A DNA stretch of 64,000 nucleotides from Chloroflexota bacterium (GTDB lineage Bacteria; Chloroflexota; Anaerolineae; Aggregatilineales; Phototrophicaceae). Positions 31,675 through 50,915 of this stretch are shown here, in pieces (positions within the stretch are counted from its first letter, which is position 1; each line of letters opens with the position of its first letter). The translations under genes were made by a program, and so were the position numbers. The stretch covers positions 24,425 to 88,424 of the forward strand of contig JAPOYS010000129.1 of NCBI GenBank assembly GCA_026706455.1. The letters are read 5' to 3'. The notes beneath the pieces were generated by a model. It did no database searches. It saw nothing but the letters and a program-made list of their open reading frames with translations, and was not told where the DNA came from.

Positions 31675-32685
31675 GTGAGAGTAAAAACTTTTGCGCTAAT
31701 GATCGCGGCAATTGTGCTTTGCGCTGTATCACTCGCCCAGGGATCTTCCAACATCGACAACTGCTGCTCCGTCAACCGGCAGTGCGCGACGAATCGGGAA
31801 TGGGTCGCGGGCTATCACGCTTTCCAGCGAAACGAATGCCCGGCCGGCCAGTCAGCAGCCCCGGCCTCCGCGCCTGTTTCAGCGCCGGTGGGTCAGCCAA
31901 TTGACAACTGCTGCTACGTCAATCGGCAGTGCGCGACGGATCAGCAATGGGTCGACGGCTACTGGGCCTATCAGAACGGGCAATGCGCCGCGCCCGCTCA
32001 GGTTCAGCCAGCGCCGTCCGCGCAGCCCGCGGCCAGCGCGCCGGCAAACGTAGACAATTGCTGTTTCCTTGATCGGCAATGCCATAGCGACGACGAGTGG
32101 GAAAATGGTTATTGGGCATACCAGAATAATGAGTGCCCTGCCGCGCCCGCGTCCGTCCAAACTGCTTCGGTCGCGCCGTCACGACCGCGTATCGAAGGCT
32201 CGAGTCGGTTTGTTCGTCTGATTGCAAGATCGCTTAATCTGCTGAGGGACAAGGCGCCAGAATGGTATACCTATGTGATTAGCGCAATGGACACAATCGA
32301 CGAAATCCCGAATTCGGACCCGGATGCTGAAACTTGTTCTGCACTTGCGTTTAAGTCTTTCAGAAGAGTTGGAATCGAAACTTGTTACGCTTTCCCTAGA
32401 AACATCGGCCGGGGCGCGCCAATCATCATGGCTGGCACGCTTGCTCACGAAGCCTGCCATCTTCACACTTATCAAGCTGGCATTGTATATCCCGGTGGGG
32501 GAGCGCAAGAAGAATTTGAGTGTGTGCCACCCATGGAAGCGGTATATAAGCTGCTCGATCCGAATGGGTTGGGCGCGCGAGTTACCACTGCGGACGAATG
32601 GTACCGTGCTCTCAATTTCTTATGCTCGAAGGGCGATGAAGCATCTTGCCAAATGGCCGAATTGGTACATCTATATTATGACTAA
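31675..32685 (+). CDS. Secreted protein with three 4-Cys repeats and C-terminal HEXXH (HEACH) zincin-like domain
   Basis: GTG start preceded by GGGAG; signal peptide; repeats IDNCCSVNRQCATNREWVAGYHAFQRNEC / IDNCCYVNRQCATDQQWVDGYWAYQNGQC / VDNCCFLDRQCHSDDEWENGYWAYQNNEC; AGTLAHEACHLHTYQAG...QEEFEC. Confidence 0.8.
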   Translation: MRVKTFALMIAAIVLCAVSLAQGSSNIDNCCSVNRQCATNREWVAGYHAFQRNECPAGQSAAPASAPVSAPVGQPIDNCCYVNRQCATDQQWVDGYWAYQNGQCAAPAQVQPAPSAQPAASAPANVDNCCFLDRQCHSDDEWENGYWAYQNNECPAAPASVQTASVAPSRPRIEGSSRFVRLIARSLNLLRDKAPEWYTYVISAMDTIDEIPNSDPDAETCSALAFKSFRRVGIETCYAFPRNIGRGAPIIMAGTLAHEACHLHTYQAGIVYPGGGAQEEFECVPPMEAVYKLLDPNGLGARVTTADEWYRALNFLCSKGDEASCQMAELVHLYYD

Positions 32686-32874
32686 CTTGGAAAAAAGCGG
32701 GCAAACTGGCCTTTCGCGGTTTTCCCATGTATTCTGGTTGCCCCTTGTCCAAACGCTAGAGCACGATGAACGGTCGGCGCGGGAGGCGCATCGGAAGTAT
32801 GCTTTCGTCGGATGTCACGGTAGCATCAATCGAATTGGCAGCCTGTTATTTTGATACTGGGAAGGAACTGACCT

Positions 32875-34128
32875 ATGTACTCCAAATGGTTTGCTGTGCT
32901 TGTCGCAAGTATGCTGCTCCTGGGCGTCGCTTCTGCGCAGGAGTATGCCATTCGCGCCAATAGGGGGCTTAATCTGAGGGTCGCGCCCAGCCTCAATGCC
33001 GACATCGCAGACACAGTTTCATCGGGCAGCACTCTGCAAGTCGTGGGCAAGTTAAATCGCTGGTTGAAGATCTACCGCAATGGCAGGGATGTCTGGCTGG
33101 CGGATTGGGTCGACTACAGCCGTGTCGAGAGCAGCGAGCCAACCGGATCTCAGCCGCCGACAGCGCCAATCGACAACTGCTGCCACGTTGATCGCCAATG
33201 CCAAAGCGATCAGCAATGGGTCGACGGCTACTGGGCCTATCAGAACGGGCAATGCGCCGCGCCCGCCCAGCCCGCGGCCAGCGCGCCGGCAAACGTAGAC
33301 AATTGCTGTTTCCTTGATCGCCAATGCCAAAGCAATCAGGAGTGGATTGCCGGCTACCAGGCGTTTCAGAGAGGACAATGCGCCCCGCCCGTGCCCGCAA
33401 CCGGGGGCAATTGCTGTTCCCTTGGTTGGCATTGCCCAACCGAAGTGGAAAGGGCGCAGGGCTATTGGACTTATCAGATTAATCAATGCGCTGGTCTGCC
33501 GCAGACTTCCGGGATCGCGCTTACAGGACCCGTGCCCAGGATAGAGGGTTCGGGTCGATTTCGTCAACACATTGAAGCGACGCTGAGATTTATGAAGAGC
33601 GTAGCGCCGGCCTGGTACAACTACGTGATAACCGGTTTAGACTCAATCGTTGAAGAACCCGTCCACGTTGAGCCCTATCGTGATGGTCAGACGACAACAT
33701 GCTGGGCCTTCGCCAATTACCGCGAAAGAAAAGCCGCCGTGCAAACTTGCTTTATGAGTTGGATTATACGGCATAATGGCCCCGCGGAGTTCGATCAACT
33801 CTCTACGGCCGGGGCGCTAGGCCATGAGGCTTGCCACATACATACACATGAAGAGGGGAAGTATTTTGCGACGCAGGATGACGAGGAAGAGTTGTGCACG
33901 AAAATGGGAACGGGCGCAGCTGTACTCATTGCCAGCGCCCTGGCAACTGGTCTAAACCCGAATCGCGGAACGAAATACTTCAATAAAGATGAAGCATTGA
34001 ACTTGCTCAGGCAGTACTGCGCGGAAGGGTATCGATCAGATCTGTTTTGTCCGACGCTTCAAAGGCTGGAAAGCATATGGCGAAATGTGCCTTACGCGGT
34101 CTTTCCACCTGGGGCGCCTCAGTGGTGA
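32875..34128 (+). CDS. Paralogue: signal peptide - SH3b - three 4-Cys repeats - HEACH zincin-like domain
   Basis: SH3b NRGLNLRVAPSLNADIADTVSSGSTLQVVGKLNRWLKI; repeats IDNCCHVDRQCQSDQQWVDGYWAYQNGQC / VDNCCFLDRQCQSNQEWIAGYQAFQRGQC / GNCCSLGWHCPTEVERAQGYWTYQINQC; AGALGHEACHIHTHEEG...DDEEELC. Confidence 0.8.
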   Translation: MYSKWFAVLVASMLLLGVASAQEYAIRANRGLNLRVAPSLNADIADTVSSGSTLQVVGKLNRWLKIYRNGRDVWLADWVDYSRVESSEPTGSQPPTAPIDNCCHVDRQCQSDQQWVDGYWAYQNGQCAAPAQPAASAPANVDNCCFLDRQCQSNQEWIAGYQAFQRGQCAPPVPATGGNCCSLGWHCPTEVERAQGYWTYQINQCAGLPQTSGIALTGPVPRIEGSGRFRQHIEATLRFMKSVAPAWYNYVITGLDSIVEEPVHVEPYRDGQTTTCWAFANYRERKAAVQTCFMSWIIRHNGPAEFDQLSTAGALGHEACHIHTHEEGKYFATQDDEEELCTKMGTGAAVLIASALATGLNPNRGTKYFNKDEALNLLRQYCAEGYRSDLFCPTLQRLESIWRNVPYAVFPPGAPQW

Positions 34129-34131
34129 GCT

Positions 34132-34515
34132 TTAGCCGTCTCCGTTTTCGGGCTGACGCAGTCCGATCGCCTCGTCAAGCGGCACGACGAAAGCGACGCC
34201 GTGGTTCGGCTCCAGCAGGTCGCCCATGACGGCGCGCGCTTCATCCAGCAAGGTCGGCACCAATTCCTTGGGCACGACCGACAGCAGGACATGATTGTTG
34301 AGTTCCATCTCGCGCAGGACGTAGGCCATCATGCTGCTCATGGAGCTGGCGATGTGCAGCGGCACTTCCAGGCTGTCGCCCGTCATTTTGCGCTGCAAGC
34401 TGTGCAAGCCGAAGCTCTTGAGGACGGTGACGCCGGGCGCGCCCGCCTCTTGCCAGCGAACGGCGACATCCAAGCCGTTTTCTACATTGGACGTGATGAG
34501 GATGATCAGTTTCAT
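34132..34515 (-). CDS. PII-like signalling protein
   Basis: Short alpha/beta protein MKLIILITSNVENGLDVAVRWQEAGAPGVTVLKSFG...HVLLSVVPKELVPTLLDEARAVMG; stop-to-start adjacent to the antiporter. Confidence 0.6.
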   Translation of the reverse strand: MKLIILITSNVENGLDVAVRWQEAGAPGVTVLKSFGLHSLQRKMTGDSLEVPLHIASSMSSMMAYVLREMELNNHVLLSVVPKELVPTLLDEARAVMGDLLEPNHGVAFVVPLDEAIGLRQPENGDG

Positions 34516-47580: not shown

Positions 47581-49434
47581 ATGACAGTTGGCGGCGCAAT
47601 TCGCAAGACCCACGATCCCGGGCTTTTGCTCGTCCTGTTGCTGAGCCTATTTAACGCCGTACCATTGGCGAGCAATCCTGGCCTGCCTGACGGCGCGGAA
47701 ACGCTAACGCACAGCCTGCGCTGGCTCATGCTCGGGACTTTGCTGGTTTGCGCTGGCGGCATGTATCTGTTCTGCCGCCGCCGAAGCGGAGGCCTGGGCG
47801 CGGTCATCGCCGCCCTTGTCTACGTTTACAGTCCGTACATTATGCACTCGCTGCCTTATGCCCGCGGCGCCTTTCCTGAGTTGCTCGCCTTCGCCTTGTT
47901 TCCACTCCTGCTATGGCGCATTGACGCGCTGCGCGACAGGCCAAGCGGCGCGAATTTCGCCGCGGTATTTGCGCTGGCGACCGCTCTTGTCAGCGCCGAC
48001 TATTTGACGTCGCTGATGCTAACCGTGATCATCAGCGCCTGGCTGAGCTTCGAGACGGCGGTTCAGCGCTTCAACCGCGAAGCTGGCCAGGTGGATACGC
48101 GAACAGGCGCGCTGGCGCTTGCTGCGCTGCTGCTGGGCGTACTGGGCGCGGCGACGTTCTGGCTGCCGGCCTTGCTGGAAAGCGCTTCGGTACTCGCGGA
48201 CGCCTTCGCCGCGGTCGTCCCGCTGGAGTTGAGCCGCCAATTCGCGCCCATGGACCAGCTGCTTTCAGCGCCGCCTATCCAGGACGCGAGCGCGATCAAT
48301 GGCTTGCGCGAGTTCAGGCTGCTGGGCGCCGCGCAATGGATTGCCGCCTTGATCGGCGCGGGCGGCGCCTTGCGGCTGTACATCGTGGGATATCGCACGC
48401 GCCATCCGCAAGCCTTTCTAGGCGTCGCCTTCTTTGCAATGCTGGCGCTTACGTTGATATTTCTAATGACGCCGTCCGCGGGCGAAATGTGGATGGGCTT
48501 AGGCTTTCACCGGCGCTTGCCGTTTCCCGCGCATCTCTTGGGTCCGACGGCAGCCTGTCTCGCAATCGTCGCCAGCGCGAACGGATTCTGGCTGGAAAGG
48601 CTGGAAGCGCGCTATCGGATCGGCATGGTCGCGCTCGCCGTCGCTTTGCCGATCGTCACTGCTCTGCCCTTGCTATTCGTGCCGGAATGGCGACACCCGA
48701 GTCTGGACACATCGGCCGGCGGGTTCATTCCGCGCGACTTACTTTCGCTCCCGGCGGCGCGCGCTGCCGGGCATGTGGTGTCAGCGTTTTCGGTCGCGAT
48801 TCTGTGTTATGTCATCTGGCGCTTGCGCAATCGAGAGCGGATGGTCCGGCCCTACTGGTCAGTTCCTTCTCTATCAACTGCAAGCTGCTACGGTATTCTG
48901 CTGGGCGCGGGCATCGCCTTGTTGACCTTTGCCGTAACGTTCCGCGAAGGGATCGCCTGGTTGAAGTCGCCGCCCGGCGTCGCATTGCCCGCGCAGGTCC
49001 GGCGCGCGGATATATTTGAAGGCGGTCTGCAGCTGATCGGTTATGACCTGGGCAGCGGCAGCTTGCGAGCCGGCGACGCGCTCAGCGTTGCGGCCTATTG
49101 GCATGCCCCCGAAGAGACAGATGCCTATCATTCGAGTTTCTTGCAGCTTTCCAGCCGTGGGTCGCCGCAGGTTCAGTTCGAGAAGCCGCGCGCCGGCTCT
49201 CATGACTGGCGCGAGTCATGGCGCGCGCAGGGATACTTCGTCGATCGTTATGAATGGGCGCTCCCAAACGATCTCCCAGTGGGCGAATACGATCTCTTCA
49301 TCGGTTTGTTCGGTTGCGGGCGGACGCCAACGATTGACTGCGGAAAGGGTCCTCCGTCAACGGCAGTTGACGAAGACGGCGCCGCGATCGGAGACAGAAT
49401 TCGACTGGCCTCCATTCGAGTCGAAGCGCGCTAG
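47581..49434 (+). CDS. Large multi-pass membrane protein with C-terminal soluble domain
   Basis: Multiple TM segments; GGLGAVIAALVYVYSPYIMHSLPYARGAFPELLAFALFPLLLWRID resembles membrane glycosyltransferase/YfhO-like proteins. Confidence 0.6.
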   Translation: MTVGGAIRKTHDPGLLLVLLLSLFNAVPLASNPGLPDGAETLTHSLRWLMLGTLLVCAGGMYLFCRRRSGGLGAVIAALVYVYSPYIMHSLPYARGAFPELLAFALFPLLLWRIDALRDRPSGANFAAVFALATALVSADYLTSLMLTVIISAWLSFETAVQRFNREAGQVDTRTGALALAALLLGVLGAATFWLPALLESASVLADAFAAVVPLELSRQFAPMDQLLSAPPIQDASAINGLREFRLLGAAQWIAALIGAGGALRLYIVGYRTRHPQAFLGVAFFAMLALTLIFLMTPSAGEMWMGLGFHRRLPFPAHLLGPTAACLAIVASANGFWLERLEARYRIGMVALAVALPIVTALPLLFVPEWRHPSLDTSAGGFIPRDLLSLPAARAAGHVVSAFSVAILCYVIWRLRNRERMVRPYWSVPSLSTASCYGILLGAGIALLTFAVTFREGIAWLKSPPGVALPAQVRRADIFEGGLQLIGYDLGSGSLRAGDALSVAAYWHAPEETDAYHSSFLQLSSRGSPQVQFEKPRAGSHDWRESWRAQGYFVDRYEWALPNDLPVGEYDLFIGLFGCGRTPTIDCGKGPPSTAVDEDGAAIGDRIRLASIRVEAR

Positions 49435-50915
49435 TAGCCGCCGGCCGGATCGGGATAGGCATGACCGCCGCCGTAGCTGAACGATGGCGTGGGCGTCGGT
49501 CGCGGCGGCAAGGGCACGCGATAATCAATGGGCAGCGAGCCGATCACCGATTTTGTCGCCAGCGTGAAAAGCGCCATCCAGCCGCTGAGGCCGTCAACGC
49601 TTACTTTGACCCAGGGGCTGTAGGGGCTGCGCGCGAGCAGATGCAGCGGCGTCCCGTATGGCAGGGTGCGCTTAATGCGGAAAGCCGTATCGGGCGCTTC
49701 CCGCAGGTTGCCGCCGGCCGCCACATTAACCGACGCCGAACGGGCATGGATGCCTAGTCGTTGGGGCGGCTCAGGCGTCTCATCATACACCTTGCGGATT
49801 TCGCCCAAGCGGCGCGCCAGCAGCTCGGCGCTCATCCAGCCGGTTTCGCCATTGCCAAGCCGGATATGCAGCCACTGGCTGTCCCGGCTGATCCCCAAAA
49901 CACTCATCGTTTCGCCGGCCGGCACTTGATACAACAGGCGCGAGTTGATGTCGGGAGAAACACGCATGTTTACGCCACCCTGCGTCTGCGCGAAACCGGG
50001 CTGGGGTATCGGCACGGGCCGCTCGAACAGCAATATGGGCAGATCTTCGATCAGTTCATATTCGAGCAAGCCTGGTATGCCGGGCGGACCGGCCGGGCGG
50101 GTCCAATCGCCGGGCTTATAGCGCAGCGCGAGTTGCTGCCCGACATTCAATGCCGCCGACTGACCAAAAGCGGTCAGGACGATCTGCCCTTCAAAGGCGA
50201 TGAATTTGGTCGCGTGGTTCTGCGTCAGCACGATCAGCGTCCCGTTGATTTGTGCCGCTACGCCGTTGATATGCAAGCGGGCGGTCTGGCCGTACAAGCT
50301 TTGCAAGACCAGTACGCCATTTCCTGGAGCAGCGGAGCAATCGGCGGGCATTATGCCGCTTTCCACCGTCAATGAACGCCAGCGGGCGCCGCCGCTTTCG
50401 GATGATGCCCGGTGCTGGATCCGTACGCTGCCGATTAACAGGGCGTCGATCGAAAGTGTTTCCTCCAGCCGCAGCCAGACAAGCCCGATGCCGGGGCCGT
50501 CTGCGGTCGCTGGGATTTCTAGGGAGTCTACTCGAGCCGCTTCGATAAGGGCGCCCGGGGCGCGTAAGTCGTCCACCGGCGGTTCGACGATTGGGGGAAG
50601 CCCGCCGGTGCAGAAGTGGCCATCGGGTCCCGCCAGACATTGGTCGCTGGCCTCGCTATAGAGTTTGCCCAATTCCGGCGGGCAGCCGGCGCTCGCGTCA
50701 GCCAAGCGTTCCAATTGATCATTCACAGTTGGAGTTGAAATGGGGAGGAGACGCGCGGCTGTCGGCACCAGCGTCGGTTCCGCTGTCGGCGTCACGTAGA
50801 TGACGTGGGCTGTTGCTGGCGGCGCGTCCGCGAGGCCCCGCCGCGTCATTCTGGTCGGCGAACAGGCGACGCAGAACATGGCTATCAGCAGCGACCCAGC
50901 GATGCGCGCTTTCAT
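49431..50915 (-). CDS. Lipoprotein with FecR-like segment and two SH3b domains
   Basis: Lipobox-like LLIAMFCVAC; INGTLIVLTQNHATKFIAFEGQIVLTAFGQSAALNVGQQLALR; SH3b GVNMRVSPDINSRLLYQVPAGETMSVLG... and AGGNLREAPDTAFRIKRTLPYGTPLHLLA. Confidence 0.7.
   Translation of the reverse strand: MKARIAGSLLIAMFCVACSPTRMTRRGLADAPPATAHVIYVTPTAEPTLVPTAARLLPISTPTVNDQLERLADASAGCPPELGKLYSEASDQCLAGPDGHFCTGGLPPIVEPPVDDLRAPGALIEAARVDSLEIPATADGPGIGLVWLRLEETLSIDALLIGSVRIQHRASSESGGARWRSLTVESGIMPADCSAAPGNGVLVLQSLYGQTARLHINGVAAQINGTLIVLTQNHATKFIAFEGQIVLTAFGQSAALNVGQQLALRYKPGDWTRPAGPPGIPGLLEYELIEDLPILLFERPVPIPQPGFAQTQGGVNMRVSPDINSRLLYQVPAGETMSVLGISRDSQWLHIRLGNGETGWMSAELLARRLGEIRKVYDETPEPPQRLGIHARSASVNVAAGGNLREAPDTAFRIKRTLPYGTPLHLLARSPYSPWVKVSVDGLSGWMALFTLATKSVIGSLPIDYRVPLPPRPTPTPSFSYGGGHAYPDPAGGY

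Follow-up and report, generated by a model that had tools for sequence, protein, structure and literature searches.

A genus-expanded family of secreted modular proteins from Chloroflexota with a predicted zincin-fold metal site and probable peptidase function in its HEACH members

Two adjacent genes lie within the 64,000-nucleotide stretch of a Chloroflexota genome that was analysed here (the window). Their products join repeated four-Cys modules (NCC modules) to a domain carrying a HEACH motif, which raises the question of whether they are secreted zinc peptidases. HEXXH together with a downstream Glu is the zinc site of gluzincin metallopeptidases. The answer favored here is that the proteins belong to a genus-expanded family of secreted modular metalloproteins in which the HEACH copies are most likely extracellular peptidases (probability roughly 0.55).

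A sequence-only reading of the locus had described two open reading frames, each encoding a signal peptide and three four-Cys modules; both were recovered at the same positions with these features, the signal peptides being judged by eye (Table 1). The signal peptides were hydrophobic with an A-x-A-like end (by eye, SLA/QGSS in protein 1 and ASA/QEYA in protein 2, the slash marking the end). As that reading had reported, the domain shared by the two proteins started with RIEGS[SG]RF and contained HEACH[LI]HT; an ExxC segment lay 17-21 residues downstream. Its account of the domain content held for the modules and the HEACH domain and overlooked an SH3_3 domain in protein 2 (39.2 bits against a cutoff of 27; Pfam PF08239). 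Protein 1 had no SH3_3 match in Pfam, and most paralogs share the N-terminal SH3_3 domain of protein 2. A 494-amino-acid protein with two SH3_3 domains was also encoded at window positions 49431-50915 (-) and was unrelated to the NCC family.

Table 1. Coordinates of the two NCC proteins and their features within the window (a slash marks the end of a signal peptide).
Feature	Position	Strand	Basis
Protein 1, 336 aa: signal peptide, NCC modules (3), predicted zincin-fold domain with HEACH	31675..32685	+	ORF list, paralog search
Protein 1 signal peptide, MRVKTFALMIAAIVLCAVSLA/Q	31675..31737	+	by eye from sequence
Protein 1 NCC module 1, NIDNCCSVNRQC...NECP	31750..31842	+	
Protein 1 NCC module 2	31897..31989	+	
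Protein 1 NCC module 3	32047..32139	+	
Protein 1 predicted zincin-fold domain (IEGSSRF...)	32191..32682	+	alignments
Protein 1 HEACH: two His ligands, putative catalytic Glu	32446..32460	+	pattern match G000:C87:56870-56884
Protein 1 ExxC: predicted third-ligand Glu, Cys covarying with HEACH Cys	32512..32523	+	
Protein 2, 417 aa: signal peptide, SH3_3, NCC modules (3), predicted zincin-fold domain with HEACH	32875..34128	+	
Protein 2 signal peptide, MYSKWFAVLVASMLLLGVASA/Q	32875..32937	+	by eye from sequence
Protein 2 SH3_3 domain (PF08239), residues 31-76	32965..33102	+	Pfam E=7.7e-10
Protein 2 NCC module 1	33166..33258	+	
Protein 2 NCC module 2	33292..33384	+	
Protein 2 NCC module 3, divergent GGNCCSLGWHC subtype	33400..33492	+	
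Protein 2 predicted zincin-fold domain	33541..34125	+	AlphaFold2 pTM 0.80; Foldseek
Protein 2 HEACH, model residues 107-111, within helix 95-116	33823..33837	+	
Protein 2 ExxC, model Glu128 to Cys131, within helix 124-148	33886..33897	+	

The repeat had been called Cys-rich, and its conserved Cys positions bore this out. Module positions N4, C5, C6, C12, G21, and C30 were invariant in 24 copies from the window and three related contigs. A wider set, 280 distinct modules drawn from 129 members, also showed strong conservation at the Trp, Gly, and Ala positions; the Cys counts in this set are a consequence of the search pattern. An Arg replaces the module Trp in module 3 of protein 2. All 129 distinct members combined NCC modules, one to five apiece, with the metal domain. 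A model of the 31-residue module (pTM 0.47) contained a single helix at residues 15-26 and matched no PDB fold. The module had no match above cutoff in Pfam, NCBIfam, PHROGs, or PADLOC and none among PDB sequences. It was present in 34 of 98 genomes of the taxonomic family, distributed as the metal domain is, and among 400 genomes of the phylum the genome of the window was its sole carrier. The module matches listed for that genome all fell inside the open reading frames of its nine paralogs. Targeting and inhibition had both been proposed for the repeat; targeting would fit better, since the modules, joined by flexible Pro/Ala linkers, separate the SH3 domain from the metal domain.

The fold of the C-terminal domain was predicted with AlphaFold2 using the protein 2 domain as query and an eight-row alignment from the window and related contigs, the protein 1 row included. 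The model (mean pLDDT 79, pTM 0.80) was compact and of alpha/beta type. After a small sheet came helix 95-116, which contained HEACH, and helix 124-148, which contained the conserved Glu128. A HExxH helix within a compact alpha/beta domain is thus predicted, as in zincins of the clan MA type. In a Foldseek search of the PDB the ChlB HExxH oxygenase domain ranked first (E 0.065), and further top matches were PPEP-1/2/3, M34, selecase, and deuterolysin, with a few unrelated proteins between; taken singly, each of these matches was weak (best E 0.065, TM 0.3-0.4). In BFVD, a set of viral models, the best E-value (2e-4) was reached by an IrrE-like protein and an unnamed one, with M48 and SprT next. 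The zincin fold is called because most top-ranked Foldseek matches agree on it, each PDB score being weak. Both model and Foldseek thus supported the zincin-type fold that had been expected, with HExxH followed by a Glu on the next predicted helix. That the proteins are secreted and carry a zincin-fold domain with a metal site is very probable. The domain itself had no match above cutoff in Pfam, NCBIfam, PHROGs, or PADLOC, and no PDB sequence match even when searched as a profile. No peptidase family in Pfam or NCBIfam reached its curated cutoff, the best being SprT-like (11.7 bits against 25.6). With profile and database searches giving no match over either the module or the C-terminal domain, the earlier view that the combination belongs to no named family stands.

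The first rank of ChlB among the PDB fold matches would also suit a non-hydrolytic metalloenzyme on a zincin scaffold, for example an Fe(II)/alpha-ketoglutarate HExxH oxygenase. Secreted proteins, however, would have little access to alpha-ketoglutarate or reductant. The TIGR04267 model (alpha-ketoglutarate HExxH hydroxylase) did match one paralog (17.5 bits against a cutoff of 40, E=0.0032), but the match lay mostly upstream of the HExxH motif, far under cutoff, and no RiPP genes were recognized nearby. Other HExxH proteins annotated as peptidases have turned out to be oxygenases (PMC12636437); for the NCC family this function is highly improbable.

The ligands of the predicted metal site were conserved nearly without exception. 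Both HExxH His residues were invariant in 135 of 135 distinct homologous domains, which rules out a chance HEACH motif, and the predicted third-ligand Glu of ExxC was found in 132 of 133 filled rows. Position 2 of HExxH was occupied by Glu (115 domains), Tyr (10), Asp (9), or Asn (1). Both window proteins carry Glu there, as do about 85% of members, and it is replaced in 15% (20): constraint on this residue, which adjoins the first His, is not absolute, and the predicted metal ligands stay constant. At least nine changes between Glu and non-Glu were required on a quick tree of 144 rows. Eight Tyr-bearing members formed one clade (support 100) in which dN/dS was 0.19-0.36 in the twelve closest pairs, indicating purifying selection and not decay. 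No invariant Tyr, His, or Arg fit for transition-state stabilization was recognized after the ligand helix. The HEACH Cys and the ExxC Cys occurred together in 131 rows and singly in none, with only four rows lacking the pair, two of them gapped. This joint presence or absence modestly suggests a disulfide between the ligand helices. Paralogs L015 and L090 carried HEAAH or HEAGH and had neither the Cys of HEACH nor the ExxC segment that follows it. The proposal of an extracytoplasmic Zn-peptidase fares differently in its two parts: the extracytoplasmic location is supported, and peptidase activity is left as a probable function, the Glu being replaced in 20 of 135 domains with the ligands kept.

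The same pattern feeds the main rival to the peptidase reading, namely a secreted metal-binding non-peptidase that would be a bacterial functional counterpart of the fungal zincophore Pra1, with Zn captured or structural and the position 2 Glu tolerated and not required. Invariant ligands around a variable position 2 and a monophyletic Tyr clade kept by purifying selection would both follow from it, as would sister families that are uniformly HDATH or HDAFH, and Pra1 itself was among the Foldseek matches. Pra1 has a deuterolysin-like fold that lost its catalytic acids and retained Zn binding (PMC12663325). Retention of Glu in 85% of members, however, exceeds what free drift would be expected to leave. 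The Pra1 triad (HRxxH and His) was also absent: position 2 was E, Y, D, or N, and the predicted third ligand was Glu, as in gluzincins, where Pra1 has His. No zinc transporter was recognized by Pfam in the flanks of the window locus, nor at six other loci of the same genome, where protein starts only were covered. A Pra1-like function of the domain is judged rather unlikely.

Weak matches within the phylum pointed to secreted proteins elsewhere in Chloroflexota that have HDATH, HDAFH, or HNAVH in place of HEACH and lack NCC modules. These were homologous over most of the domain (hhalign probability 97.5-98.0), and nine HDATH sequences of one distant family all kept His, His, and ExxC. The HDATHSE or HDAFHSK proteins (L058, L128, L174-L183) resemble the NCC family in this homologous domain and its His, His, and ExxC; they differ in carrying Asp where the catalytic residue would be, in lacking NCC modules, and in the single copy found per genome. 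In these proteins HDATHSE or HDAFHSK was invariant, the ExxC was ERFC-like, and the sequences ended in DGTHCDLDHDGDCDWDDYQNRNW, an EF-hand-like acidic tail. L058 had no match in Pfam or NCBIfam, and a plasmid search with the distant HDATH relatives gave no match. Asp may be older than Glu at position 2, since distant relatives carry it with the ligands and ExxC kept. A tentative extension, possible but doubtful, is an undescribed secreted HEACH/HYACH/HDATH superfamily whose conserved function would be His/His/Glu metal binding. Proteolysis would be absent or gained only in some branches, and the NCC branch would have radiated to at most 20 paralogs in a genome, serving at the surface as receptors or in metal binding.

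The NCC family itself was nearly confined to one genus. The genome of the window contained nine paralogs on seven contigs, and 33 of 34 congeneric genomes had 1-20 domain matches each, counts that come from partly fragmented genomes in which copies may be missed. Within the taxonomic family but outside the genus, one genome had clear copies and one a weak match. An order-level search of 154 genomes found no additional carriers, and domain matches occurred in 4 of 400 phylum genomes, the genome of the window counted. Public relatives were Chloroflexota MAGs; a virus origin was set aside, no relative being found in IMG/VR scans. The window pair occupied a site that was syntenic in many congeneric genomes, pointing to vertical descent accompanied by changes in copy number.

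The gene order at the window locus was 2OG-Fe oxygenase, two NCC genes, a 127-amino-acid gene, and a Na-H exchanger. The 127-amino-acid conserved protein (window 34132-34515, -) adjoins the exchanger gene, had no Pfam match, and showed 66-98% identity at this site throughout the genus. Conserved functional neighbors were considered and rejected, as six other loci of the same genome have unrelated neighbors. A HYACH gene was paired with an upstream HE[AS]CH gene at five of eight loci; no pairing is claimed, as paralogs cluster anyway and the flanks are short. Genome G092 had a cluster (L045:75-1923, L079) of adjoining HEACH, HYACH, and HDACH paralogs with overlapping open frames. At L077:850-1968 a stop codon divided a HEACH paralog, located upstream of a HYACH gene, into two frames; this paralog is possibly a pseudogene.

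Median pairwise dN/dS was 0.57 for the domain and 0.36 for the modules, the domain thus evolving faster. Together with the copy number per genome and the tandem paralog clusters, this would fit a lineage-specific diversifying effector against rival bacteria or a eukaryotic host, the NCC array binding and the metal domain acting. Against this, no toxin trafficking domain or immunity-like neighbor was recognized, PADLOC gave no match, and the C-terminal domain is one family and not polymorphic. An effector role is improbable.

For the favored reading, secreted metalloproteins with peptidase activity in the HEACH copies, the following mechanism is proposed. The signal peptide would direct export, and the SH3_3 domain, if present, together with between one and five NCC modules, disulfide-bonded and spaced by Pro/Ala linkers, would hold the protein at the cell wall or an extracellular target. 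SH3_3 domains are found in bacterial cell-wall proteins, which makes surface anchoring of the members bearing them plausible. The zincin-fold domain would bind a divalent metal through the HExxH His pair and the Glu of the next helix, and we infer that this metal is most likely Zn; a disulfide would tie the two ligand helices. In HEACH copies, both window proteins included, the Glu beside the first His would act as general base for cutting extracellular peptide bonds. These copies are probably cell-surface or extracellular peptidases, a view that follows from established zincin chemistry and is weakened by the natural substitutions of the catalytic Glu. The predicted metal site persists in the HYACH and HDACH paralogs, which are probably conserved metal-binding non-peptidases, acting as non-hydrolytic binders or partners. 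Roles in protein-protein interaction and regulation are among those given in a review of metallopeptidase pseudoenzymes (PMC11266112).

The analysis adds an unnamed zincin-fold family (as predicted) and an unnamed four-Cys module, which co-occur, are nearly confined to one Chloroflexota genus among the genomes searched, and are strongly amplified. With gluzincins and other zincins (PPEP/Zmp1, IrrE/M78, M48, SprT) the family shares, in the predicted fold, the HExxH helix, a Glu on the next helix, and a small alpha/beta core, and with PPEPs also secretion. It differs from them in showing no significant sequence match, in its near-invariant inter-helix Cys pair, in its NCC array, and in the replacement of the catalytic Glu in 15% of members. 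The ChlB/TIGR04267 hydroxylases share a zincin-like scaffold with HExxH and include the best PDB fold match; they are intracellular RiPP enzymes, whereas the NCC family is secreted and its sequence match is under cutoff. Bacterial SH3_3 cell-wall proteins (PF08239) have in common with protein 2 and most paralogs the N-terminal domain; there it accompanies known hydrolases, and here a new metal domain together with NCC modules. Fungal Pra1 is likewise secreted, disulfide-rich, and of zincin fold, with the catalytic acid lost and metal binding kept, but it is HRxxH+H and hexameric. In the NCC family the predicted third ligand is Glu, the catalytic Glu is kept by most members, and no relation to Pra1 in sequence was found. 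The natural Glu/Asp/Tyr/Asn series, in which the ligands are constant and a Tyr clade is conserved, provides a test set for the passage from a metallopeptidase scaffold to a non-catalytic metal binder.
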